Origin: Ruminococcus bicirculans (ex Wegman et al. 2014)
Lineage (GTDB): Bacteria > Bacillota > Clostridia > Oscillospirales > Ruminococcaceae
DNA: 64,000 bases
Reading direction: 5' to 3'
NCBI RefSeq assembly: GCF_000723465.1
Contig: NZ_HF545617.1
Span: forward strand, 434,001 to 498,000
Shown: positions 5,492-45,118 of the stretch, piece after piece
Numbering within the stretch: the first letter of the stretch is position 1
Layout of the letters: each line of letters opens with the position of its first letter
Position numbers and translations under genes: made by a program
Notes under the pieces: generated by a model
The model's input: only the letters and a program-made list of their open reading frames with translations
What the model was told of the DNA's origin: nothing
Databases searched by the model: none

Positions 5492-6658
5492 ATGTACGAA
5501 AATTTTAAATATCTCGACGCTGTTGCACAAAAAGAGATAACTAAGGGTGTTTTCTCAGGCTCAGTTCTCAGCGTTATCCATAAAGGCGAAACTGTCTATC
5601 TCAAAAGCTTTGGTCTTGCTGACAAGGAGAAAAATATCCCTATGAAAACTGACAGCATTTTCAGACTCTTTTCTATGTCAAAGCCTGTCACAGCCGCTGC
5701 CGCAATGATACTTATCGAGCGTGGTCTGCTTGACACTCGTCACCTGCTCAAGTGGTTTATCACTGAGTTCTCCGACCCTGTGGTTCTTGATGAGAACGGT
5801 GAGCGTCCTGCTGACAGAGATATAACCATAGGCGACCTGCTCACCATGACTTCCGGTATCCCCTATCCTGACGGCACTCCTGCAGGTCAGAAAATGGGTG
5901 CGCTTTGGGGCGAGCAGTCTGAAAAATATCTCAAGGGCGAAAAGCTTCTGGATACTGTGAGCTTCGCAAAGGAAATGGGCAAGCGTCCTCTTATGTTCAC
6001 CCCTGGTGAAAAGTGGATGTACGGTGCATCTGCCGATATCATGGGTGCTGTTATCGAGGTGGTTTCTGGCATGAAGTTCGGAGATTTTCTTAGAAAAGAG
6101 ATCTTTGAACCCCTCGGTATGAACGATACAGGTTTCTATATCCCAGCGGAAAAGTACAGCCGACTTGCCCAGTGTTATGAATACAAAAATGGAGGAAACG
6201 AGCCGTTCACTCACTTCCACCTTTGCCTTACTGATTACACTGTACCTCCTGCCTTTGAGTCGGGCGGAGCAGGTCTTGTTTCCACTGTAGAGGACTATGC
6301 AAAGTTTGCCAAAATGCTTATGAATAAGGGCGAGCTTGACGGCGTGAGGATACTCGGCAGAAACACGGTCGATTTCATGACAAGAAACGGTCTTACACCT
6401 GAACAGCGCAAGACCCTTAACTGGGACAGCACAAAGGGTCACGGCTACGGTAACTTCATGCGTATCCTTGACGACCCTTCCACCGCAGGTCTTATCCAGT
6501 CAGAAGGCTCTTTCGGCTGGGACGGCTGGATGGGCTGTTATTTCAGCATTGACCCAAAAGAACAGCTCTGCATACTATATTTTATCCAGCAGACAGGCGC
6601 AGGCACCACCGATTCTGCAAGGCGTTTGCAGAACATCGCATGGGGTGCAGTAAAATAA
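5492..6658 (+). CDS. Beta-lactamase-related serine hydrolase (class C / esterase-like)
   Basis: 388 residues. The nucleophile motif SxxK is S61-M-S-K64 and the YxN-like position reads YGAS (about residue 176); a GHGYG segment near residue 316 is the likely third motif. There is no signal peptide, so it is probably cytoplasmic and more likely an esterase, peptidase or amidase of the beta-lactamase fold than a resistance enzyme. A GGAGG precedes the ATG. A DUF389 gene follows after 18 nt with its own GAGGAGG, so the two are probably one operon. Confidence 0.85.
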   Translation: MYENFKYLDAVAQKEITKGVFSGSVLSVIHKGETVYLKSFGLADKEKNIPMKTDSIFRLFSMSKPVTAAAAMILIERGLLDTRHLLKWFITEFSDPVVLDENGERPADRDITIGDLLTMTSGIPYPDGTPAGQKMGALWGEQSEKYLKGEKLLDTVSFAKEMGKRPLMFTPGEKWMYGASADIMGAVIEVVSGMKFGDFLRKEIFEPLGMNDTGFYIPAEKYSRLAQCYEYKNGGNEPFTHFHLCLTDYTVPPAFESGGAGLVSTVEDYAKFAKMLMNKGELDGVRILGRNTVDFMTRNGLTPEQRKTLNWDSTKGHGYGNFMRILDDPSTAGLIQSEGSFGWDGWMGCYFSIDPKEQLCILYFIQQTGAGTTDSARRLQNIAWGAVK

Positions 6659-33856: not shown

Positions 33857-34916
33857 TGTAGGTTTGTCAATCATATTGGACACTATTATTAAGAAATTCG
33901 ATAGGCGAAAACCATTTGAGGGGACGCATAGGACGGTTGTTTGTTCGACTTAAACGTGCAGCTAGCTGCACGTTTAAGTCGTCGCAGGAATAAAACCTAT
34001 GGCACGAATAGAATTTGTTGTGATCTTCTCGGTGACTGCGCTCTACTTTGCCATTGTGCCTGGGCGTATATGGACGAATGAGTTTGTGTTCAATGCCAAG
34101 TTGTGAGAGCGTATTCTCAAACAGCGTTTTCTTGTCTCTTTTGCTTGGCGAAAAGCGGTTAGTAAATTCAAATCCATTGTCGGTCTGAATACATTTCACC
34201 GTTATTCCTCTGCGTTTGTACCATTTCACCAGCCTTTTTACAAAGTCTGCTGAAGAATAGGTGCTTTGCTCCTCATATCCGTATAAAAATCTTATCCTGG
34301 TATACTCATCGATCGCCGTGTATTGGTACAGCTTCATCTCTGGGTCAGCTATACACTTTCTCGGAACTACCTTTACGTCCACCTGAATACGCTCTCCGGG
34401 GTATGTCATCTGCTCGTATGGCTTTGGTTTATACGTCGCTTTCTTCGGCTTTTTCGGAAGCATTCCTAGTTTTTTCATAACCCTGTAAAGACTTTCAAGA
34501 CAGCGTGTATACCCTTGTTTTCTGAGACGATGCCATAGTTCGGGAAGCTCAAGCGTTGGGTTTCGTTTGTGATACCTTTTGATAAGATCTATTTCTTCCT
34601 TGGTATGCTCGTTGGGATGATGATGCGGTCGGCGTGATTTAACTGCAAGGGACTCCACACTTCCGTCCCAGCGTTTCAGCCAGAAATATATATATGAACG
34701 TGATTTATTGTATTTTCTGCTTGCTCGGCTCACTCCATATTTCTTTGCGTAATTCATTAAGGATTGACGAAACTTCATATCTTGTGTTATACTATTCATG
34801 AGAGATAGGCTTCCTTTCTGATTTGAATTTGGTGTGGTAACTTTATTTTATCAGATTTTTGCCTATCTCTCTTTTCTTTTTTCTTAATTTTGTCCAATAT
34901 CTATTGTAGCACTACA
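33857..34916 (-). mobile_element. Insertion sequence copy 3 (IS481/IS1202-like, 1060 bp)
   Basis: Same boundaries and length as copies 1 and 2. The 26 bases at 33831-33856 are repeated at 34917-34942. It sits 30 bp upstream of the tRNA-Thr promoter. Confidence 0.93.
33867..34799 (-). CDS. DDE transposase (rve fold) of insertion sequence copy 3
   Basis: 310 residues, identical in protein to copy 2; a few silent differences (for example around 34553-34565) separate it from copy 1. Helix-turn-helix followed by the rve core with the DDE acids. The 36-nt palindrome is at 33946-33981. Confidence 0.92.
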   Translation of the reverse strand: MNSITQDMKFRQSLMNYAKKYGVSRASRKYNKSRSYIYFWLKRWDGSVESLAVKSRRPHHHPNEHTKEEIDLIKRYHKRNPTLELPELWHRLRKQGYTRCLESLYRVMKKLGMLPKKPKKATYKPKPYEQMTYPGERIQVDVKVVPRKCIADPEMKLYQYTAIDEYTRIRFLYGYEEQSTYSSADFVKRLVKWYKRRGITVKCIQTDNGFEFTNRFSPSKRDKKTLFENTLSQLGIEHKLIRPYTPRHNGKVERSHREDHNKFYSCHRFYSCDDLNVQLAARLSRTNNRPMRPLKWFSPIEFLNNSVQYD

Positions 34917-34946
34917 CAAAGCTTTGAAAAAAATCTTGAATTGATG

Positions 34947-34975
34947 TTGACAAATGTGTGGTTTTGGTGTATAAT
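34947..34975 (+). promoter_or_regulatory. tRNA-Thr operon promoter (consensus)
   Basis: TTGACA, 17 nt, TATAAT: a perfect housekeeping promoter 16 nt before the interrupted tRNA. Confidence 0.9.
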
Positions 34976-34990
34976 ACTTAGGTCTGATGT

Positions 34991-35148
34991 GCTGATATGG
35001 CTCAGTTGGTAGAGCAGCTCATTTGCTGAGCAAGCGACCGCTGCCAGAGGCAGATGAAGGGAGCTTGCGAAGGGAAGAAATAAGGAGAATTGCGACAGCG
35101 ACAGCCGAGCAAGGCGACTATATTTCTGACCGTATATGAGCAGGTCGT
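34991..35148 (+). pseudogene. 5' part of a split tRNA-Thr gene, with a 106-nt insert in the anticodon loop
   Basis: 34991-35025 reads as a tRNA 5' half (acceptor GCTGATA, D-arm, anticodon stem GCTCA, loop start TTTG). It is broken after the second anticodon base by about 106 nt (35026-35131), after which TATGAGCAGGTCGT resumes the anticodon stem and variable loop. The rest of the gene (T-arm and acceptor TATCAGC) is 12.6 kb away at 47796-47827. The joined halves most resemble tRNA-Thr(TGT). Confidence 0.8.
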
Positions 35149-35209
35149 GGGTTGTTGATAAAGCGACACGGCGGCGGATCAAATAAGCTAACAGAAAAAT
35201 TTAATATAT

Positions 35210-35285
35210 GCTGGAATAGCTCAGTTGGTAGAGCAGCTCATTCGTAATGAGCAGGTCGCGTGTTCAAGTCACGTTTCCAGCTCCA
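35210..35285 (+). tRNA. tRNA-Thr (anticodon CGT)
   Basis: Complete cloverleaf: acceptor GCTGGAA / TTCCAGC, anticodon loop TTCGTAA, T-loop TTCAAGT, encoded CCA. It lies inside element 1, 62 bp from its left end, and shares its D-arm and anticodon stem with the broken gene. It has no clear promoter of its own, so the host promoter at 34947 probably transcribes it. Confidence 0.95.
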
Positions 35286-35294
35286 TATTGTAAT

Positions 35295-35334
35295 AGTCCG
35301 AACACTGGAAAGTGCTCGGACTTTCTTGTTTTTA
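35295..35334 (+). terminator. Terminator after tRNA-Thr(CGT)
   Basis: AGTCCGAaCACT / AGTGcTCGGACT stem, GGAA loop, then TTCTTGTTTTT. Confidence 0.85.
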
Positions 35335-35423
35335 TGCCTGATCTTGAAGTGTTTGTGATGAGGGTAAGATTTAAGCACTGATAACATAAGAAAGCCATAC
35401 CGCAACTGCAGTATGGCTCTTTA

Positions 35424-36359
35424 TCAAAACAGCTGAAGCTGTCCATCGATATTTGATTTTACATTACGTATATTCACTTTATCATCATCTTCGATTTTGC
35501 CAGAGATGAGTGGGGATAACGGATTGTGTTTCTCATGATTTTTGCGTGCCATTTCGCCGTTGAAATTTGCATAGCAGTACATACAACCGTTTTCACATGT
35601 GTTATACATACCTATATCAATACTCTCAATGCAGCCGCAAACGCCCCTTTGATTTTTATCTTTCCCTATCTTAAGCTGATAATTACCTATCCTTTCAAGG
35701 CGTTGTTTATCAATGCAGCAGGCATGTTCGACATTTAAAGATGAAAGGTCATATTCTTCAGCGCAAGTATCAATATATATTCCATTATCTTTTGCAACTG
35801 TCGAAAAAAAGTCCATTAAGTCAATGACCTCATCATTTAAAGGTATATGAATGTTCAGAGGCTGAATATTTCTTTCTGTGTTTTTATATAGGTCTATGAA
35901 GCTTACTGTGCATTTTTCCGTATAATTGCTTAAGGATTCACATAACTTTTTAAAGTATTTTTTGTGATATTCTATTGTATAGTGTTCATTTATCAATATC
36001 GGGTCGTATCTCCATACAATGCGCTCTTTTCCTATTATCGATGAAAGCTTTTTAAAAGTTGGTATAATCACATCATTTTTGGACGGTATATTTTTTTCTA
36101 CATCTTTTCCATAAGAATTAAGGGTGAATTGAAAATAATATGTGTATTTATCAAGTTCGTGTATTCTTTCAAGCATAGGTGTAGGATTTTTTGTCCAGAA
36201 TACTATACCGTCAACAACGTCAGGTGACAGACTTATTTGGCTTATCTGGTGTATATTCATTGGATTCCTTACACAAACATAGCCTTCTTTTAATCTGTTA
36301 AACATCCAATCGGAGTAAAATGAAGGAATGTCTGTTCTTCTGCTTGCACTTATAATCAT
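35424..36359 (-). CDS. DUF1848 family protein (radical-SAM-like Fe-S protein)
   Basis: 311 residues. The start MIISASRRTDIPSFYSDWMFNRL is the DUF1848 signature; a VFWTKNP segment and a C-terminal CENGCMYCYANFN, preceded by ACCIDK and GVCGC, give a cysteine set able to bind an Fe-S cluster. The biochemical role of the family is not established. The ATG overlaps the stop of the methyltransferase-like gene by 4 nt, so the two are translationally coupled at the end of the R-M operon. Confidence 0.85.
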   Translation of the reverse strand: MIISASRRTDIPSFYSDWMFNRLKEGYVCVRNPMNIHQISQISLSPDVVDGIVFWTKNPTPMLERIHELDKYTYYFQFTLNSYGKDVEKNIPSKNDVIIPTFKKLSSIIGKERIVWRYDPILINEHYTIEYHKKYFKKLCESLSNYTEKCTVSFIDLYKNTERNIQPLNIHIPLNDEVIDLMDFFSTVAKDNGIYIDTCAEEYDLSSLNVEHACCIDKQRLERIGNYQLKIGKDKNQRGVCGCIESIDIGMYNTCENGCMYCYANFNGEMARKNHEKHNPLSPLISGKIEDDDKVNIRNVKSNIDGQLQLF

Positions 36360-37270
36360 TTATTCACCTTCTTTATTATCATTTGAGCGCTGGCACAAGT
36401 ATTAAATGGTGAAAACTTCTTCAGATTCGTTAGATTAAAAAGATTTTGATTGTCAGGTAATTCTTCACCGTATGTATATCCTCTTGGATAGTATTCACTG
36501 GTAGCATTATCATTGCAAAAGTGAGTTTTTGAATATTGTGAATTATTTAACTTGCTTAATAAAGTATCAAAATGATCTCTTCCGCCGCCATATCCGCATC
36601 CTAAGTTAATATCATTTAGAATTACATATGTGTTTTGTAAAACTTTGGCATTGTAGTATTCTGCGAATGTATCTATAGAGTGTTTGATATCATTTGCAGT
36701 CGTATGTTTTTGAATATCTGAAAATACATACTGAAAAACGATAAGATTTGGGACCCATTTTCCGTTTGCAATTTCATCAATCAGAATACATGCGTCTTTA
36801 TAGTAAAAATGTATATCTATATTGTCTTTTTTAAGTTTATTAATATCTTGATGGATATTTGCCCAAACATCTTTGCTGTAATCTACACCACGATACTTAA
36901 TGCTATTAAACGATATTAGCTTTTTTTCTTTAAGAGCATCTAAAGCAAACAAATCTGTACAAGGACCGCAACCAAAAGATAAAACTTTTAATTCGTCAAC
37001 ATTTTGTATGCCTGAACATCTTTGAATTGCATACATTAACTCTGATGTATACCTACAAGAGTACTTGCAGGTATAAAAATCAGCCATATGAACACAATCA
37101 TATTTTCTTTCGGGGGCATTTTGAGGGGCATGTTTGGGATTATGTAAGTAATCCAGACATTTTTCGCAGTCGTGCGGACAATATTCTCCATATGAACAAT
37201 CTTCGCATTGTTCGCATTCCGGTTTCTCATAGCGATTTATGCATTTTTCAAGGATTTCATAAATCAACAT
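36356..37270 (-). CDS. Cys-rich protein with methyltransferase-like Rossmann domain
   Basis: 304 residues. An N-terminal cysteine-rich region (CEQCEDCSYGEYCPHDCEKC, residues 19-38, with more Cys to residue 72) probably binds metal or an Fe-S cluster. VLSFGCGPCTDLFAL (about 94-108) is a class I SAM-binding glycine loop, followed by YRGVDYSKDVW. The substrate is unknown; the usual NPPY of DNA methylases is absent. A GGAGGG ribosome site lies 5-10 nt upstream. It is the third gene of the R-M operon, coupled to DUF1848. Confidence 0.65.
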   Translation of the reverse strand: MLIYEILEKCINRYEKPECEQCEDCSYGEYCPHDCEKCLDYLHNPKHAPQNAPERKYDCVHMADFYTCKYSCRYTSELMYAIQRCSGIQNVDELKVLSFGCGPCTDLFALDALKEKKLISFNSIKYRGVDYSKDVWANIHQDINKLKKDNIDIHFYYKDACILIDEIANGKWVPNLIVFQYVFSDIQKHTTANDIKHSIDTFAEYYNAKVLQNTYVILNDINLGCGYGGGRDHFDTLLSKLNNSQYSKTHFCNDNATSEYYPRGYTYGEELPDNQNLFNLTNLKKFSPFNTCASAQMIIKKVNK

Positions 37271-37307
37271 ACTATTTCCCTCCTACTTATATTTATATAT
37301 TTGCCGC

Positions 37308-38402
37308 TTAATTATCTGATACAATCTTTTTTGTTGCCGCAATTTTCTTGTCGGAATACAAAACAACGTCCTTGATAACAAGCTTATGTACTGATGAAAT
37401 AAGCAATTCCATAGTCTCAAAATCAGGTGTCCCATTTTTCACAGGAAGCTGAATGAATAATTCATCTGCATCCTTGGCATAGAAGTTCTTCCCATAATTA
37501 AATTGACCGTTATGTGAAGATTTATGTATCGCTGTTGTCACAAATATAGAAGCATACTTAGGCAGCTTTTCTGTGTGAACAACTGCAATATGGTCATCTG
37601 CACCGTATTTGTAATTCCGATACTTTGCTGAGCCGAACATATCAATGGTGGTAGTATTCTTTTCAAAAACTTCAACATCATTACTGATGTAAGCAGAAAT
37701 GCCCTCATCAGCTTCACCGGCTGTAACAAACGGTAAAGTACCACTTATTCTATCTGCACCTTTTAATCTCTTGCCACGTGTAGATTGACCGAACAAATCT
37801 TTAAGATTAAACGAACTCCATTCAAGCATTTCAAATTTTTGAAGAGCGTCCAGCTCTTCGTCCGACAATTCATAATTGTCGTATCCGCTTACTTTTAAGT
37901 AAGCGGATAGCTCCGCTACTCGCTCCGCCTCCAGCTCCGCTACTCGCTCCGCCTCCAGCTCCGCTATAAAGGACTCCATAAAATCAAAATCGATTTTGCC
38001 GTTTTTGGTGGGGAGTTTAATTTTGTCATTTTTTATTCTTTCCCAACCAGCTTTATTAGTCCATTCATAATTACCATAAATTGTTTTATGTATTGAGCTT
38101 GTTAAAAAGATATAACTGTTATCCGACAATTTTTCATCTGTGTATATCCATTTAATAGCATATGCGTCCTGCAATACTGTAAACTCTTTACTTTGATAAA
38201 ATGTTGCACCTGTATTTGCACCATTAGCAGAAATAGAAATAACATTTTTCAAAATAGTGGCATTATCTCTTGGAACATAATTATTAAGACCTTGGTTTTG
38301 GATTCCTGCTGTTAAAGCAGGAAGAACACACTCGTTTGTAGGAATATTTGGCAATTCCGAAGTTTTGTATTTTAAAGAGTTTACTGAAATTTTTTCAAAC
38401 AA
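37308..38402 (-). CDS. R-M specificity subunit (BcgI-B / HsdS-like), probably made by -1 frameshift from the preceding gene
   Basis: At least 364 residues. Two target-recognition half-domains (about 1-150 and 190-330) surround a central helix containing the 8-residue unit AELEAERV twice, and a C-terminal helix. Conserved coding continues upstream of the TTG at 38402: the frame reads ...NVEWGEYRLGDLFEK, a typical start for S subunits, but contains no ATG, GTG or TTG before it closes at 38489. The frame is entered instead by a -1 slip at GGGAAAA (38465-38471) from the methylase gene. A lone TTG start would lose part of the first domain. Confidence 0.8.
   Translation of the reverse strand: MFEKISVNSLKYKTSELPNIPTNECVLPALTAGIQNQGLNNYVPRDNATILKNVISISANGANTGATFYQSKEFTVLQDAYAIKWIYTDEKLSDNSYIFLTSSIHKTIYGNYEWTNKAGWERIKNDKIKLPTKNGKIDFDFMESFIAELEAERVAELEAERVAELSAYLKVSGYDNYELSDEELDALQKFEMLEWSSFNLKDLFGQSTRGKRLKGADRISGTLPFVTAGEADEGISAYISNDVEVFEKNTTTIDMFGSAKYRNYKYGADDHIAVVHTEKLPKYASIFVTTAIHKSSHNGQFNYGKNFYAKDADELFIQLPVKNGTPDFETMELLISSVHKLVIKDVVLYSDKKIAATKKIVSDN
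37884..37907. repeat. Perfect hairpin inside the S-subunit gene
   Basis: TCCGCTTACTT / AAGTAAGCGGA, 11-bp stem with a 2-nt loop, coding for the segment just after the AELEAERV repeats. Confidence 0.7.
37909..37966. repeat. 24-bp tandem repeat in the S-subunit spacer helix
   Basis: 37909-37932 and 37933-37956 are identical; a third unit starts at 37957 and runs about 10 bp. Each unit encodes eight residues of the helix between the two recognition domains. Confidence 0.9.
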
Positions 38403-38420
38403 ATCCCCAAGCCTATACTC

Positions 38421-38471
38421 GCCCCACTCAACATTGCTCAGCTTTTCATTGAGTGAGGCATTTATTTTCCC
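38421..38471 (-). promoter_or_regulatory. Candidate programmed -1 ribosomal frameshift signal
   Basis: On the coding strand: G GGA AAA heptamer (38465-38471) in the correct zero-frame phase, immediately the zero-frame stop TAA (38462-38464), a 5-nt spacer, then a stem-loop whose arms GCCTCACTCAA (38449-38459) and TTGAGTGGGGC (38421-38431) pair over 11 bp with one G-U. After the slip the frame reads into the S subunit without interruption. Confidence 0.7.
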
Positions 38472-40513
38472 AGGCGTTCGTTCTCGTTATCCTGATTTTT
38501 AAGCAATGTTGATACTTCCCAGGCAAGATAGTCGCTTACTGTTTTCTTGAAATCTTCAAGCGTAGGCTTTGTATCAATCGGTGATGTCTGGTTCCAGTCT
38601 GCACCGTTTTCAGGGTCTATTGTTCCCTCGTAGTATTCTTTTTCAGTGAAAATATTGAGCTTTGATTTTCCATATCGAACAAGGTCAACAACTTCCTGAT
38701 ATCTGCCCTTGGCGTTGTCTGTATCAAATAAATTGCAGCTTGCTTTTTTACGATTGCTGCGTGTATAACCATCGTTGGAAAAATCAATGAATTTTACAAC
38801 ATCGTCCTTCTGATGAGCTTCGCCAACACGGAAAACGTATACATTTGTCTGAACGCTTGATTTTCCGACAAATAAATCTATGGGCATTTTTATACTTGCA
38901 AGAAGTGTGCTGTGTTTCAGTATTTTCTTGTTATATCCGCTTGCTTTTCCCGAACCTGCGGAGTTCTGAATAATAATAGCAGCATATCCTTTTTCCATCA
39001 TTGATAAAGCTTTTTCAACGAATACCATACCATTTCCGGGCGCTGAATATGGTGGATTAAGAACAAATGCGTTTGCCGGGAACTTATCATTGGTGTTGCC
39101 AAAGCCGTAATTACCGTTAAAGTCTTTTAATGAGTCTTTATTCAAGATATTAGAGCTGCCATCACCCATCATAATCATATTAAGTATGGCAAGCATATAA
39201 ACGCTCGAAAGAATTTCCAGACCAAGAAGCTGAGTTGCTTTTATTTGGGCGGATTTTATTGCCAACTGTTCGGGAGATTTAATTTTGTCCTTCGCATCAA
39301 TGAGCATTTCGTTCATAGCAGCAACAAGAAGACCTGCCGAGCCTGTTGCAAAGTCCCATACATACGAATCCTTGTTTACCCTTGCAAGCTTAACAAGCAG
39401 AGTTGCGACATAGGAGGGAGTAAGAACTACATCGTTGAGCTTGTCCTGTGTAAACCCAAGCCAGCCGTACATTTCATTGAACAGCTTGCCGGTAAAGTCT
39501 GTTGTGAGTCCTATTTTATAGTAAATACCGAGGTCATCAACTATTTTTGTGAAAACACGCTTCAGCTGGGTTTCTCCGTTTTCAACCTTGTTGATATTGT
39601 CGGTAGTAAGTGTATTCTGAAGTGTTCTTACAATTAAATCTCTTTTATCTTCGGGAAGCTTTTTGGCAGCAAGAAAAGCTTTGATTTTCCGCACCATAAT
39701 ATCGCCGTCGGTATTGTCTTTTTCATCGGAAGAAATCAAATCAGATTTTTTCAAAGGGTATACATTGTGCTCGACATCGCCGAGCGTTGCCATAATAGAG
39801 GCGGCAACAAGATATACTCTGTCGTTTTCACCAAGCCCCTTTTCGTTTTGATAGATATCATTATTCAGCTTTACAAGGCTTGCATCTATTTCACGCTCAC
39901 GGCGTTCCTTTAATTTTTCTATTTCTTCCTGCGTAAGAGACAGAAGTCCTACTTTTTCTATAAAAGCATCGAAGTTTTCCTTTTTAAGAAAAGAAAGGTC
40001 GGTATAGTCATCAACTTTCTGACCAACACCGAAATTGCTTTTTGAAACATAATACACTCCGATAGAATGTTCAAGTTTTCCGCTATCGTTTTTAAAGCCG
40101 GTAACTCCGATAGCGATTACATCGGTATAGCCTGTATAATGAAGTATAGCGTTTGCATAGTGAACAGCTCCATTCACTGCATAAGAGTTTATATTCTTAT
40201 AGTCAGGTTCGTTTTTGGAATTCTTGTTTGCAACATTTTTTTCACTATCAAGCTTAATAAGCTTATCTTTATAGCCCTTATATTCAATAAGGATAGGATA
40301 GTACTTACCATCACTGCTACGCAATAACAGCTTTGCATCAGGTCTGTTACCGCCTTTGCCACCGCTTTTTGAAAAATAGTCGTTTAAAGCCTGGTCTATT
40401 TCAGTGTTTAACGACTCCTGCTCCAATTTATAATCAAGCTTATATGATTTAAGCCAACCATTTACTAAATCAGCAATATTGGGTTCAACCGACTGAACTT
40501 TTATTTTAGCCAT
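38462..40513 (-). CDS. Fused endonuclease / N6-adenine DNA methyltransferase (BcgI-A-like)
   Basis: 683 residues. The N-terminal part has a PD-(D/E)XK-like nuclease pattern, RPDAKLLLR then ILIEYKGYKDKL (about 57-83). The methylase half has DFATGSAGLLVAAM (SAM loop, about 385), LGLEILSSVYMLA and the catalytic NPPYSAPG (about 494). Domain order and size match the A subunit of BcgI-type Type IIB systems, which cut and methylate only with a separate S subunit. The gene ends right at a slippery heptamer and may also be made as an A-S fusion. It leads the operon M, S, methyltransferase-like, DUF1848. Confidence 0.88.
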   Translation of the reverse strand: MAKIKVQSVEPNIADLVNGWLKSYKLDYKLEQESLNTEIDQALNDYFSKSGGKGGNRPDAKLLLRSSDGKYYPILIEYKGYKDKLIKLDSEKNVANKNSKNEPDYKNINSYAVNGAVHYANAILHYTGYTDVIAIGVTGFKNDSGKLEHSIGVYYVSKSNFGVGQKVDDYTDLSFLKKENFDAFIEKVGLLSLTQEEIEKLKERREREIDASLVKLNNDIYQNEKGLGENDRVYLVAASIMATLGDVEHNVYPLKKSDLISSDEKDNTDGDIMVRKIKAFLAAKKLPEDKRDLIVRTLQNTLTTDNINKVENGETQLKRVFTKIVDDLGIYYKIGLTTDFTGKLFNEMYGWLGFTQDKLNDVVLTPSYVATLLVKLARVNKDSYVWDFATGSAGLLVAAMNEMLIDAKDKIKSPEQLAIKSAQIKATQLLGLEILSSVYMLAILNMIMMGDGSSNILNKDSLKDFNGNYGFGNTNDKFPANAFVLNPPYSAPGNGMVFVEKALSMMEKGYAAIIIQNSAGSGKASGYNKKILKHSTLLASIKMPIDLFVGKSSVQTNVYVFRVGEAHQKDDVVKFIDFSNDGYTRSNRKKASCNLFDTDNAKGRYQEVVDLVRYGKSKLNIFTEKEYYEGTIDPENGADWNQTSPIDTKPTLEDFKKTVSDYLAWEVSTLLKNQDNENERLGK

Positions 40514-40549
40514 TTTGAATTCTCCTTATCAGTTTTTTATGATGACAAT

Positions 40550-40593
40550 TGAGTTATCTTCACCCGCCCACCCCGTAGGAGATAACTCAATCG
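40550..40593. promoter_or_regulatory. Leader hairpin / operator of the R-M operon
   Basis: Perfect 12-bp inverted repeat ATTGAGTTATCT / AGATAACTCAAT around a C-rich 20-nt loop, between the promoter and the methylase start. There is no T-tail. It could be a repressor operator or an RNA structure in the leader. Confidence 0.65.
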
Positions 40594-40629
40594 GTGATAG
40601 TGCCGAATATGTATAACTTTTCATTATTT

Positions 40630-40658
40630 ATTATACCACAACGTTTGTCAAAATTCAA
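40630..40658 (-). promoter_or_regulatory. R-M operon promoter
   Basis: Minus strand TTGAAT, 17 nt, TATAAT, about 120 nt upstream of the methylase ATG. Confidence 0.7.
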
Positions 40659-40746
40659 TGGGAATTTCCATATTTCTGCTAAATAAGCATAAATTTATCC
40701 GTCTGAAAACGCTCAGGCGGATTTTTTATGAGCCGTTATGTGAAAA

Positions 40747-41140
40747 TTTGATGAAAATTTGCTTAAACAGTGAACCACCCGTCCATTTTTTCGGCGTATA
40801 AAAGTGAGTGGTGATTTTCGGTGTTATTGCAATTGTGAAAGTTTGATGAAAATTCACGGGAAAAGGTGGTCACCTGCCCGATTTTTTACTGTATATAGTA
40901 GAAGGTGTTTTTCAAACAGACGCAGAGGTGCGTAACGGAATGTTATTTTGATAAAAATTCAGGACAAAAGGTTAGCACCTGCCAGATTTTTTGGCGTATA
41001 AAAGTGAGGGGAATTTTCATCGCAACTGAAATTGTGAAAGTTTGATGAAAATTCAAGAGAAAAGATGGTCACCTGCCCGAATTTTTACTGTATATAGTAG
41101 ATGGCGTTTTTTATGTAGGCTCAAAGAGACGTGACAAAAT
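40747..41140. repeat. Four imperfect tandem repeats of 95-103 bp
   Basis: Units start with TTTGATGAAAATT-like sequence at 40747, 40842, 40945 and 41041. Units 1 and 3 share CGGCGTATAAAAGTGAG; units 2 and 4 share CACCTGCCCGA and ACTGTATATAGTAGA. The plan is therefore a duplicated pair of about 198 bp. No open frame runs through it. Confidence 0.75.
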
Positions 41141-41220
41141 GGTATTAATGTAAAATGTGACATTTTGGGTTTACCCCGTCATTTTTATTCGTCTTGAATA
41201 GTAGAGGTTGTAATTTTATT

Positions 41221-41538
41221 TCAAATCTTCTGTGAAACAAGGTGTAAATTTGCCTTAAAAATGGCAGTGAGTAGAGGTTGAAACAGAAAAATTGAGATTT
41301 TTAACGATAACATAATGACAATATAATAGTCCAATTTGTGAGATTCTAAATTTTTAATTTTTTGAAAACTTTTTGCGAGACTAAAAAAAGTCTCCGAACA
41401 AGCTTCTTCGGCTAACGTTTTATTTTTCAAAATATTAAACGCAATCGCATAAGCCTTAGACCTATTTTGATTATATAAATCCTCAAATGATTTCTTATCG
41501 TCTTCGTTATCAATTAAGGTTAAGTATATTGCAAGCAT
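41221..41538 (-). pseudogene. Degenerate ECF-type sigma factor
   Basis: The start MLAIYLTLIDNEDDKKSFEDLYNQNRSKAYAIAFNILKNKTLAEEACSETFFSLAKSF is a good match to region 2 of clostridial ECF sigma factors. After DYYIVI the frame loses similarity, while the next frame continues as VIVKNLNF, so a frameshift is likely, and region 4 is missing. It starts at 41538 right after a short open segment that ends at 41551. Confidence 0.65.
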
Positions 41539-41550
41539 AATGCCCCCCAT

Positions 41551-41643
41551 TTATTTTTGTTTATCATTTTCATACAGCAAAACCAAAAACTCCGCCAACG
41601 CCCGTAATTTCGCCTTAAACTCGTCAGATATTTCAACGGATTC
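41551..41643 (-). other. In-frame open segment after the stop of the sigma gene
   Basis: Directly after the TAG at 41644 the same frame stays open for 30 codons (ESVEISDEFKAKLRALAEF...) and ends in TAA. The sequence looks protein-like and has no start codon or ribosome site of its own. It may be a former C-terminal part of the sigma protein or the remnant of a small gene. Confidence 0.5.
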
Positions 41644-42459
41644 CTATGCTGTCCTACCCTCCAAGGCATCCTTAACCGCCCGGTTACACAACCGCCACCA
41701 TTTCAGCTTACTCCCGTTATGGTATTCCTTGCGAAGAATCTCTGTTGCAGAATTAACAGCCTTGTTTACAGCGTTTCTGGTGATCAGCATATAGTCCGCA
41801 ATGTCGTTAACGGAGGTCTCTTCATACCCGAATGCACCATATTTTCTGCCGAGAATTTCTCTGTCCCTGGCTGATAAGTTTTCAAACAATTCCTTGAAAA
41901 GCTCAAGGCTAACTTCAATGTAAACCTTGTTATCGGGGTGCAGATCGTTAACGACAAGCCCAGGATTTTCAATGTACTCAATTCCGTTCTCTGTTTCCGC
42001 CCGTATCATCAGCGTTTCCGTTTTAAAAGAGAATGACAGACAGCTTTGAACGGTTTTCCTGTCCATGCCAAGCTCCTTGGATATATCCGAATTTGACATA
42101 CCTTCATTATGCAGCTTGCGGCATCTTTGTATTTTTGAGAAATCGGAATGTGAAAGTCCTGCCGGAGAACTGAAATTTTCAATAAACTCCTGCATTGCAT
42201 ATCGAAGTTGGGGAGTAAGATATGTCAGTAGACTGCCCTTTCTTGCGTCATATTTTTTTGCTTTCAGCTTTTCAAAGAACGTCAAACTGCCAACCTGAAC
42301 AAGGTCTTCAAAGGTATCGCTGAAACGCAAATAATTTTTGTAGTCTTTTGCGACCGCAGCAGCAACGCTCTGTATGAACCCGACATTCTGCTCGTACAGA
42401 TCATATAAAGCTTGCATATTACCGTCATAATATTTCGATATCAGTTCCTCATTTGTCAT
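41644..42459 (-). CDS. Sigma-70-like RNA polymerase sigma factor of a mobile element
   Basis: 271 residues from the ATG at 42459, preceded by AAAGGCGG. Region 2 is at about residues 40-105 (FSDTFEDLVQVGSLTFFEKLKAKKYDARKGSLLTYLTPQLRYAMQEF), then a helix-turn-helix-like part (MSNSDISKELGMDRKTVQSCL) and region 4 (LSARDREILGRKYG ... SVNDIADYMLITRNAVNKAVNSA). It probably directs transcription of element genes. It overlaps the DUF6076 gene by 11 nt and is translationally coupled to it. Confidence 0.75.
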   Translation of the reverse strand: MTNEELISKYYDGNMQALYDLYEQNVGFIQSVAAAVAKDYKNYLRFSDTFEDLVQVGSLTFFEKLKAKKYDARKGSLLTYLTPQLRYAMQEFIENFSSPAGLSHSDFSKIQRCRKLHNEGMSNSDISKELGMDRKTVQSCLSFSFKTETLMIRAETENGIEYIENPGLVVNDLHPDNKVYIEVSLELFKELFENLSARDREILGRKYGAFGYEETSVNDIADYMLITRNAVNKAVNSATEILRKEYHNGSKLKWWRLCNRAVKDALEGRTA

Positions 42460-43579
42460 TCTTAACCGCCTTTGGTCTGCCTCTCTTCGGAACGTCAAAA
42501 CCGCATAATTTGTAAAGATTTTCAGACTGCATTTGCTGTTCAAATTCCTCATTGCTGAATTCGGGAGAGGTCATTGCTCTATGGTACAGTTCTTCTGCTT
42601 GTCGCAGAAGAACAGATTTTTGTTTTTCATCAATAACTTTTCTCTGATAGCTTCGCATAACCCTGTTAAGACAGCGCCGATATGACTGATATTTCGGATT
42701 ATCCGCATTTTCTTCCTTAATTCTGACCGTTCTGTAAGCCATCTGATTACAGGTAAACCTCGGATTTTCAGGCGCAGCCTTGTCGCAGTATCTTGTTTTG
42801 TAGCCTTTGGTCATAAGAAAGAATCGTCCGCAATGTTCACATCTGCGTATATGATGTCCTGCCATAAGACCTTTTAGAAAATCGACCTTTAAAAAGCTCT
42901 GCAATCTATCAACATGGTAGTATTCCGCAATTACATACTCTCCGCAGCCATCGGTTATTTCTTTGGGGATCATATTCATTTCAAGAAAATCAGCGCTTGT
43001 ATACGACATATATTCATTCATGATAGGATTTGCAATCATCTTGTACGCCATAGGATTTGTAAGAAAGTCATAGTAAGCGGCGGCAAAATTTTCGGGATCA
43101 AGCTTTTTAAGATGTGACAGAAAATCGTTCACAAAGTAATACATAGTCTTATTGAAATTAAAAATATCATCGATCACAGGCTTGTAAAGACTTGCGGTCT
43201 TGTAATAAAGCTCCCAGTTTTCGGAATTCATAATTGTGCCGTCCATATCAGTAAATCCTTTGAAAAATTCGACAGCATTCTGAGTATCAAGAACCTGAAA
43301 TATTTTATGTTTTTTCAAAGCCGTATCTATTTCGACCATCATGCTGTTCAGCCTGCCCCACTCCTTTTTTAAGGGCGGTATATATTCAACGGAATTATCC
43401 TTTTCAGCATTGATTTCATGGTTCATTATGTATTCCGCCGATCTATACTTATCATATATCTCTTCGAATTCGGAAGGAGGTATATTCATACATGATGCCG
43501 AAAGCTCGCCCAATAAAAAGTCCTGACCGTTGACCTCAATCATATTTCCTTTGACATAAAAACAAATATCGTTAAACAT
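42449..43579 (-). CDS. DUF6076 domain-containing protein
   Basis: 376 residues. The helical N-terminal two thirds have no recognised motif. The C-terminal part has RRCEHCGRFFLMTKGYKTRYCDK (about 250-272) followed by FTCNQ, a zinc-binding Cys set typical of DUF6076. Such genes accompany sigma-like genes in clostridial integrative elements; the function is unknown. Its promoter is at 43621-43649. Confidence 0.75.
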   Translation of the reverse strand: MFNDICFYVKGNMIEVNGQDFLLGELSASCMNIPPSEFEEIYDKYRSAEYIMNHEINAEKDNSVEYIPPLKKEWGRLNSMMVEIDTALKKHKIFQVLDTQNAVEFFKGFTDMDGTIMNSENWELYYKTASLYKPVIDDIFNFNKTMYYFVNDFLSHLKKLDPENFAAAYYDFLTNPMAYKMIANPIMNEYMSYTSADFLEMNMIPKEITDGCGEYVIAEYYHVDRLQSFLKVDFLKGLMAGHHIRRCEHCGRFFLMTKGYKTRYCDKAAPENPRFTCNQMAYRTVRIKEENADNPKYQSYRRCLNRVMRSYQRKVIDEKQKSVLLRQAEELYHRAMTSPEFSNEEFEQQMQSENLYKLCGFDVPKRGRPKAVKNDK

Positions 43580-43620
43580 AATTACACCTCAAGGCTGTCG
43601 TTTTTACAGTTTCCAAATTA

Positions 43621-43649
43621 AGTATATCATATTTTGCCGCAATATGCAA
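43621..43649 (-). promoter_or_regulatory. Promoter of the DUF6076-sigma operon
   Basis: Minus strand TTGCAT, 17 nt, TATACT, about 45 nt upstream of the start. Confidence 0.7.
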
Positions 43650-43715
43650 CTGAAAATGTCGTGTTGAATAAAAAAATAATGTTATGTGATTTTATTCATT
43701 TTCTGAATTTCCGCA

Positions 43716-43775
43716 TATAATAATATCAGAGGGTAAAAAACGCACCGCAGAAAACTAAATCTGCGGCGTTTTTTG
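43716..43775 (+). promoter_or_regulatory. -10 element followed at once by a terminator (leader of the ATPase gene)
   Basis: GCATATAAT (-10 at 43716-43721, weak -35) is followed after about 15 nt by a strong hairpin, CCGCAG / CTGCGG extended by AAAAACG / CGTTTTTT (43736-43775). A transcript started here would end within about 50 nt unless it is antiterminated; the ATPase gene starts 50 nt beyond. Confidence 0.55.
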
Positions 43776-43825
43776 TTTGCAGAACCGAGGTCAGCGGCTT
43801 TGCATATCAAAAGGAGGTCGATAAA

Positions 43826-45118
43826 ATGAAAGAATTAAAAATGTACAGCAGCGAGTATATTATGAATACTCCGATGAAACCGATCGAATATTGTGTTGAC
43901 GGTTTGATCTCGCAAGGATTGTTCGTCCTCGCAGGAGCACCGAAAGTCGGTAAATCGTGGCTGGCTCTCGATATGTGCCTGTCCATTGCAAAAGGAGAAA
44001 AGGTGCTTGGAAAAGAAACGTTATGCGGTCATGCGGTATATCTTGGCTTAGAGGATAGCCTGATACGTCTGCAAAACAGGTTGTATGAACTGACAGACGA
44101 GCCGTCCGACAATCTTCACTTTGCAATTATGGCGGAATCAATGTCAAACGGTCTGCCTGAACAAATTGAATACTGCAGGAAGCGGTTTGACGATTTGAAA
44201 ATTGTTGTGATAGATACATTACAAAAGGTGCGTAACGAATCGGAGTCAGGCTACAGTTCTGATTACAAAGAGTTGTCTGTGTTGAAATCTCTTGCAGATA
44301 AGCTTGGCGTAGCTATTGTTCTGGTTCATCACACACGAAAGTGTTCTGACAGCGACCCATTTAATATGATTTCGGGCAGTACAGGTTTGAGCGGTTGCGT
44401 TGACGGAAGTATGGTTCTGATTGAAAGTAAACGTGGAAGTCGTACAGCAAAGCTTCATTGTGTAGGTCGAGATATTGAAAATCAAGAGATCAATGTTGTG
44501 TTTGAAAGCAGCAGATGGAAAGTGTCTGATGAGATTAAAAATATCGAACCCGACTATTTTTCATTTGCTGTTCATGACTTTATGGTAACTCAGAAAACGT
44601 TCAAAGGCTCTGCTACTGAACTTGCTGAAAAGTTATCTGCTCTGCTGGACAAAGAAGTGTTTTCAAATCGTGTCAAAAAAGATTTAATTCAGCACGCTTA
44701 TGAATTGCTGAATTACGGAGTGACGTTTGAATCCAAACGCAGCAACGGACAGCGAATAATTATTCTGAATTACGATATGAAAAGTGACAGCAGTGACGGC
44801 AGAAATCTTATGCCGGAGGTGTGTGAAAACGCTGACCCTGCTGTCACTTGCGGTAACAGTGAAATGCTTGAAAAGCCTTTAAATACGTTGCTTGCGATTG
44901 ATGAGTACGAAGTTGAGGCAGAAAAATCCGCTGTCACTGTTTGTGATTCTGCCGACCCTGTTGATGACGTTACTGACCCTGCCGCTAATGAAGTTTATGA
45001 AATCGAGTTAATGAGCCTTGATGAAGTACTGCATATGTCTGCTAATAAAATAAGAAGTCAGCTTGCGAATAAGGGGATTGAAATTCCGCCGTTTGAAACG
45101 CAAAGAAAGGCAACGTAA
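43826..45118 (+). CDS. RecA-like AAA ATPase (RepA/AAA_25-type replication helicase)
   Basis: 430 residues. Walker A is GAPKVGKSW (about residue 37), Walker B is LKIVVIDTL (about 132), and VLVHHTRK with ISGSTGLSG follows as in RepA-type hexameric helicases. The C-terminal part is long, acidic and low in complexity. It probably acts in replication or mobilisation of element 1. AAAAGGAGG precedes the ATG. Confidence 0.8.
   Translation: MKELKMYSSEYIMNTPMKPIEYCVDGLISQGLFVLAGAPKVGKSWLALDMCLSIAKGEKVLGKETLCGHAVYLGLEDSLIRLQNRLYELTDEPSDNLHFAIMAESMSNGLPEQIEYCRKRFDDLKIVVIDTLQKVRNESESGYSSDYKELSVLKSLADKLGVAIVLVHHTRKCSDSDPFNMISGSTGLSGCVDGSMVLIESKRGSRTAKLHCVGRDIENQEINVVFESSRWKVSDEIKNIEPDYFSFAVHDFMVTQKTFKGSATELAEKLSALLDKEVFSNRVKKDLIQHAYELLNYGVTFESKRSNGQRIIILNYDMKSDSSDGRNLMPEVCENADPAVTCGNSEMLEKPLNTLLAIDEYEVEAEKSAVTVCDSADPVDDVTDPAANEVYEIELMSLDEVLHMSANKIRSQLANKGIEIPPFETQRKAT

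Follow-up and report, generated by a model that had tools for sequence, protein, structure and literature searches.

The window (the whole stretch of DNA that was analyzed, 64,000 nucleotides of Ruminococcus bicirculans) carries a BcgI-like (Type IIB) operon in which the RM and S reading frames are very likely joined by a dnaX-like programmed -1 ribosomal frameshift. The sequence of the signal, its conservation, the covariation of its hairpin, the absence of a usual start codon for S, and the pairing of a single TRD with signal loss in fused relatives are shown; slippage itself, its efficiency, and the protein products are inferred. The positions of all features are given in Table 1.

Table 1. 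Features of the RM-S locus in the window
Feature	Position	Strand	Basis
RM subunit (zero-frame product, 683 aa)	38462..40513	minus	ORF; ends CTG GGA AAA TAA
Slippery heptamer G GGA AAA, X XXY YYZ phase	38465..38471	minus	sequence; in-phase GGGAAAR or AAAAAAR in 87/89 loci
Zero-frame stop TAA directly after heptamer	38462..38464	minus	sequence
5-nt spacer TAAAT, heptamer to hairpin	38460..38464	minus	sequence
Hairpin 5' arm, predicted stimulatory	38448..38459	minus	12 pairs; pairing in 97.8% of cells (85 sequences)
Hairpin 3' arm, predicted stimulatory	38421..38432	minus	folding and covariation
S subunit, -1 frame, 386 codons and stop, two TRDs	37308..38468	minus	open frame; Methylase_S; PADLOC Specificity_II
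TRD1 (Methylase_S, residues 12-180 of -1 frame product)	37929..38435	minus	domain match
TRD2 (residues about 206-362 of -1 frame product)	37383..37853	minus	PADLOC PDLC03591
24-bp tandem repeat, 2.4 copies, (AELEAERV)n linker between TRDs	37909..37966		repeat search

The RM and S genes and their junction

The RM protein combines an N-terminal PD-(D/E)XK-like nuclease and an N6-adenine methylase (NPPY) in one chain. Domain searches returned N6_Mtase (3.7e-19) and VRR_NUC (3.5e-4, below the curated VRR_NUC cut-off), and PADLOC matched the protein to REase_MTase_IIG (3e-239). The nuclease assignment leans solely on the sub-threshold VRR_NUC match and on an invariant PD...EYK motif; P58, D59, E77, and K79 were invariant in a 22-row alignment (protein alignments were made with 23, then 22 chosen rows). 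An AlphaFold model of RM (pLDDT 69.9), used for the fold family only given its moderate confidence, resembled Type I M subunits and BsaXI chains. Sequence searches of solved structures, by phmmer and by profile, gave no match at the limits used. Since these domain, PADLOC, and model matches are accompanied by two Methylase_S stretches in the -1 frame product, we assign the pair by domain matches and fold to the BcgI-like (Type IIB) restriction-modification systems; cleavage on both sides of a bipartite site and A2B assembly are inferred.

The -1 frame is open from within RM through KINASLNEKLSNVEWGEYRLGDLF... for 386 codons up to its stop (37310..37308). It holds no ATG, GTG, or TTG upstream of TRD1; the first such codon is the TTG of 'GDLF', 69 nt past the heptamer start and within the conserved start of TRD1. 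Because S lacks a start codon of its own, we infer that most or all of it is produced as the C-terminal portion of a ~1068-aa RM-S fusion; initiation of free S at an unusual codon has not been ruled out experimentally. Neither known Type IIB layout is met: S as a separate chain, as in BcgI-like enzymes, would require a usual start before TRD1, and one continuous RM-S frame, as in AloI-like single chains, is ruled out by the RM stop at 38462 and the -1 position of S.

The 24-bp repeat (37909-37966) is perfect and lies inside the S coding sequence. Repeats comparable to this inter-TRD linker are known from EcoR124I. The length of the linker varies among relatives, with L031 the shortest and L043 the longest (35 of 83 parsed), and the gap of the recognized site may therefore vary with it.

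The zero frame of RM closes with an in-phase slippery heptamer, and a downstream RNA structure (a covarying 12-bp stem) follows at the usual distance, 5 nt away. The window hairpin has a minimum free energy of -18.8 kcal/mol (z = -3.26), and only 1 of 200 dinucleotide shuffles folded at least as well. The original prediction, made from sequence alone, had described the CTG GGA AAA TAA end, the in-phase heptamer, the immediate stop, the 5-nt spacer, an 11-bp stem-loop, and an upstream S sequence without ATG, GTG, or TTG. All of these held, the stem being extended by a twelfth pair (U-G). An upstream Shine-Dalgarno (SD)-like element had been missed; it occurs in most relatives, but the window has no canonical copy.

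A dnaX-type layout consists of an SD-like element, a heptamer, and a stem-loop. The -1 signals of insertion sequences likewise combine an SD-like element, an X_XXY_YYZ heptamer, and a stem-loop (PMC4066793), and the junction resembles them except for the SD-like element. It differs from both dnaX- and IS-type signals in serving a restriction system. Among the heptamers, G_GGA_AAG ranked in the top three in E. coli when stimulators were present (PMC4066793). For G_GGA_AAA the same paper is mixed, citing older work in which it was inefficient in E. coli and elsewhere placing it among the more efficient IS motifs.

Conservation of the signal among relatives

Relatives were taken from a one-genome-per-species scan, of which the best 80 of 312 were kept (so that distant relatives are under-sampled), and from nearby genomes, viral contigs, and plasmid and phage records. 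RM and S were out of frame in 92 of the 96 rows with more than 60% identity and in a continuous frame in the other four. Dropping L115, L116, and L118, which have the same junction as L122, left 89 distinct out-of-frame loci including the window, to which the relatives are 68-89% identical. The records holding these loci belong to at least eight named phyla, many being metagenome bins; isolates of Allobaculum, Gilliamella, and Apibacter are among the carriers. Their distribution is scattered, and plasmid, phage, or viral-contig records hold some of them, which suggests transfer. At E <= 1e-100, a locus was found in 6 of 391 genomes of the same class (including the window's own genome, and G217 with ~48% identity and no frameshift signal as one of the five others), in 1 of 295 genomes of another class (an already known genome), and in 2 of 398 genomes in the phylum scan (own genome included). 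A scan of viral contigs with the RM of L120 recovered only L120 itself, and two cassette patterns run over viral contigs gave four and three stretches, all in contigs already holding a locus. Among complete E. coli genomes, 29 of 5426 carried a copy, 20 of these with most of the query.

The in-phase heptamer was kept in 87 of the 89 loci, as GGGAAAA (65), GGGAAAG (16), AAAAAAA (4), or AAAAAAG (2); L046 (GGGACAA) and L076 (GGAAAAG) lack a canonical form. Elsewhere in the same genes, in-phase GGGAAAR or AAAAAAR occurs at 0.16% of codons (91/57,936). The RM stop was TAG in 48, TAA in 27, and TGA in 14 loci, and in five (L053, L102, L105, L114, and L117) it did not directly follow the heptamer.

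This conservation is not an amino-acid effect and reflects a synonymous constraint, since all 72 genes ending in Leu-Gly-Lys use NNG GGA, compared with 6.6 expected from each gene's own codon usage and with just 39 of 437 internal Leu-Gly pairs. At the AAAAAAA loci, the peptide becomes LKK or SKK and the slippery shape is retained. Codon choice was also skewed further upstream in the 72 genes: GAG encodes the Glu seven codons from the end, at the place of the SD-like element, in 52 of 55 cases, but two codons later GAA is used for Glu in 18 of 19. With a stimulatory window close to the definition in PMC4066793, an SD-like element was present in 76 of the 89 loci, compared with 9.3% of positions elsewhere in the genes.

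The third codon position of the slip site differs between hosts. AAG is the slip codon in most Pseudomonadota and Campylobacterota loci and AAA in Bacillota; GGGAAAG was found in none of the 49 frameshift loci labeled Bacillota but in nine of ten from Pseudomonadota and Campylobacterota (a count that takes in one plasmid and one phage host), and other E. coli loci (L135, L136) use AAAAAAG. Possibly, the slip codon follows the host via lysine tRNA supply, although this is a lead only, confounded by ancestry and metagenome binning.

The hairpin is conserved as a structure. For covariation, L090 (cut) and L101, L114, and L117 (different stems) were omitted, and L053 was shifted to its heptamer. 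In the resulting 85 gap-free junctions, 97.8% of 1020 cells pair, whereas sliding one arm by one to three columns leaves no more than 47.8%. Two-sided changes were seen in five of the 12 pairs (20 of 500 shuffles reach five), and 40 cells were changed on both sides versus 11.8 in shuffles, with none of 500 shuffles as high. RNAalifold gave the identical 12 pairs. Some loci carry another stem in the same place: an unrelated one in L101 (12 pairs, -24.9 kcal/mol), an ACTCCCG/CGGGAGT stem in L114 and L140 (about -20 kcal/mol), and a further one in the E. coli locus L135 (-17.6). The ACTCCCG stem is also present in L117, yet it is not the lowest-energy fold there. Over the 92 frameshift loci, the 55-nt fold after the stop had a median of -19 kcal/mol. 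It was weak in L053, L105, and L101 (-1.6, -6.3, and -10.8, respectively) because the stop or the stem sits elsewhere in these loci; measured from the heptamer, the values were -20.4, -14.0, and -24.9.

These data bear on a simpler explanation, namely that a recent one-base deletion or a sequencing error has split a former single RM-S gene. In its favor, one added A joins the frames, and L151 (56% identity) has literally such an in-frame junction. Against it, the 92 out-of-frame rows nearly always have heptamer and hairpin, S is open for at least 340 codons in 78 of them, the same junction was found in five of five further genomes, and RM and S are also out of frame in all five complete E. coli genomes inspected (where several copies lie beside phage genes). 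A deletion or error is all but excluded, since relatives at 68-89% identity keep the heptamer, the stop, and the covarying hairpin. The original prediction had put forward both a programmed -1 signal joining RM and S and the deletion, with a comparison of homologous junctions set beforehand as the test. The deletion failed, and the programmed signal is strongly supported by conservation, its products being inferred. Heptamer, stop, and stem proved to be conserved, and the four continuous-frame homologues have one TRD and a decayed signal. ATG-started S genes without the heptamer, which had been named as a refutation, exist only below 50% identity among those seen and in separate lineages, and so do not refute it.

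Slippage of RNA polymerase, or phase variation, at the A run could also join the frames. The AAAAAAA site in four of the 89 loci and a GACA repeat between the TRDs of L151 speak for this explanation. RNA polymerase slippage usually needs runs longer than the three to four A residues, which are all that 81 of the 89 loci have; moreover, the hairpin and the SD-like element both have the spacing of ribosomal frameshifting, and the heptamers of the loci read differ through substitutions and not in run length. We regard this explanation as all but excluded. A phase-variable restriction-modification system as such was rejected as a candidate: it would have a long simple repeat at the junction, where the run is GGGAAAA and conserved.

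A third possibility is translational coupling, by which ribosomes reaching the end of RM would restart on a nearby codon and release free S, as proposed for EcoKI hsdM-hsdS. Supporting it, and speaking against the generality of a fusion, the TGA stop of 14 of the 89 loci creates an ATG in the S frame (ATGA). The distant loci L005, L006, and L141 have TAATG, and L004 has an ATG just before the stop. In contrast, TAA and TAG stops give ATA (heptamers ending in A) or GTA (ending in G) at this place, and 39 of the 89 loci have no ATG, GTG, or TTG in the S frame before TRD1, some of them for more than 200 nt. A start codon lies inside RM, upstream of the slip site, in 25 loci, and at or after the slip site but before TRD1 in another 25, in many of which it is the ATG created by the TGA stop. 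Independent initiation of S could contribute in relatives with such a codon, but not generally. Coupling would also leave unexplained the in-phase heptamer, the NNG GGA bias, and a hairpin 5 nt past the slip site, and we consider it very unlikely as the main route to S.

In-frame and distant relatives

RM and S are fused in frame in four relatives (L063, L065, L108, and L120), which represent three changes inside the frameshift clade according to a quick tree with many open forks, in which the branch of L120 is long and uncertain (the tree excludes L009, L121, and the three duplicates). All four have a single TRD. By comparison, of 78 frameshift loci with a long S frame (three duplicates included), 77 had two TRD hits and L043 had three from a split domain. 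In the remaining 14 of the 92, S was short or truncated at a contig end; seven of these frames were closed and all showed two TRDs once all frames were read, and the other seven were not judged. The four in-frame relatives have also lost the heptamer, and their best 55-nt fold near the junction reaches only -4.6 to -7.1 kcal/mol. The coincidence of one TRD and signal loss fits a frameshift that sets two RM per two-TRD S, a reading that rests on three origins in the quick tree.

L151 joins RM and S in frame by one extra A (TTG GGA AAA ATA GAT). Between its TRD1 and TRD2 lie 17.2 perfect GACA units (L151:6604-6672). Because TRD2 is out of frame behind this repeat, we infer that it is likely a phase-variable switch between a one-TRD and a two-TRD enzyme.

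Most of the relatives examined below 50% identity have ordinary S start codons and form separate lineages. One system, present in three contigs (L148-L150, 27% identity to the window), nevertheless carries A AAA AAA TAG and an 11-bp stem of its own (-20.6 kcal/mol; about 5859-5935). As its sister loci (~54% identity to these) have ordinary start codons, we infer that the frameshift arrangement arose repeatedly or was passed from one lineage to another.

Proposed mechanism and relation to known systems

In the mechanism that we propose, most ribosomes translating RM would terminate at the stop codon that adjoins the heptamer, yielding free RM (683 aa). The hairpin, together with the upstream SD-like element in most relatives, would hold the ribosome, and a fraction would shift back from GGA AAA to GGG AAA and continue into S in the -1 frame, which would produce the RM-S fusion. 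One free RM and one RM-S would rebuild the RM2:S core of BcgI, i.e. two catalytic modules and two TRDs; BcgI itself has two RM per S (PMC4081073, PMC9159934). We infer that slippage serves both the subunit ratio and tethering. The fixed ratio of A to tethered A-B that had been predicted from the A2B form of BcgI fits the one-TRD exceptions, the ratio itself remaining an inference.

Alternatively, the frameshift may be real, but its purpose may be to hold S, and with it DNA cutting, at a low level, e.g. during establishment in a new host. This is possible, as it would limit an activity harmful to the host, and the scattered plasmid, phage, and viral loci suggest transfer; on its own, it does not predict the single TRD of in-frame chains. 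Under the ratio hypothesis, a bolder reading can be formulated, for and against which we would give equal weight: a restriction-modification clade spanning at least eight named phyla would use the -1 frameshift as its main route to S, fixing RM : RM-S; the exit would be TRD loss with in-frame fusion, so that each TRD keeps one catalytic module; the slip codon would follow the host; and a distant RM lineage would have gained or received the device.

The system can be compared with several known designs. Like the window locus, BcgI and BsaXI have an RM with nuclease and gamma N6-methylase and an S with two TRDs; their S is described as a separate chain, whereas the window S lacks a usual start codon and is encoded after RM in the -1 frame. 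In the single-chain Type IIB enzymes AloI, TstI, and CjeI, RM and S are covalently joined as in the predicted fusion. Every such chain has two TRDs, a ratio of 1 RM : 2 TRD that has been called a mystery (PMC3874165), whereas the window system should also make free RM and its in-frame relatives have one TRD. HaeIV-like enzymes, single chains thought to be homodimers, resemble these one-TRD relatives and differ from the window locus, with its two-TRD S and frameshift. The family suggests a natural answer to the single-chain puzzle: either a single message yields both RM and RM-S in a fixed proportion, or one TRD is lost.

Both solutions have laboratory-made counterparts. An engineered EcoKI M-S fusion (Type IMS) needs extra free M for activity in vitro (PMC3510504), and an engineered M-half-S fusion dimerizes and is active (PMC6158711). 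The 'frameshift' in that work is a 1-nt gene overlap with translational coupling, and no slippery site is mentioned in the sections bearing on it. By analogy, the natural family likely holds both arrangements, i.e. fusion with free M and half-S dimer.

No programmed frameshifting in a restriction system was found in the open-access literature searched (supplements and subscription papers lay outside, and a GeneTack entry is not excluded); a frameshift census (PMC3711429) and a review (PMC5009743) contained none in the sections bearing on restriction or methylases. Each part of the device is already known, and within the literature searched its combination in a restriction system is likely new.

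S genes of such systems can be mis-annotated. In RefSeq, one E. coli S starts at an inner GTG inside TRD1 (L134:3392-4477), another is recorded as a partial pseudogene plus a fragment (L133:3365-4477), and a third starts at a CTG inside RM (L135:3265-4518). Because S records are mis-started or split in this way, surveys of defense systems may count a working system as broken, although this is inference. In a further E. coli copy, an IS1 element, annotated with its own programmed frameshift, lies just after RM and inside the S frame (L136:3433-4130).

The surroundings of the window locus (33867-45118) include an rve integrase (33867-34799), DUF1848 (35424-36359), sigma-like genes (41221-42552), DUF6076 (42449-43579), and an AAA_25 protein (43826-45118), and the locus may sit in a mobile island. 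A BcgI-like RM gene on a Macrococcus plasmid has an IS30 transposase gene immediately ahead of its matched part (L160:1777-2736).
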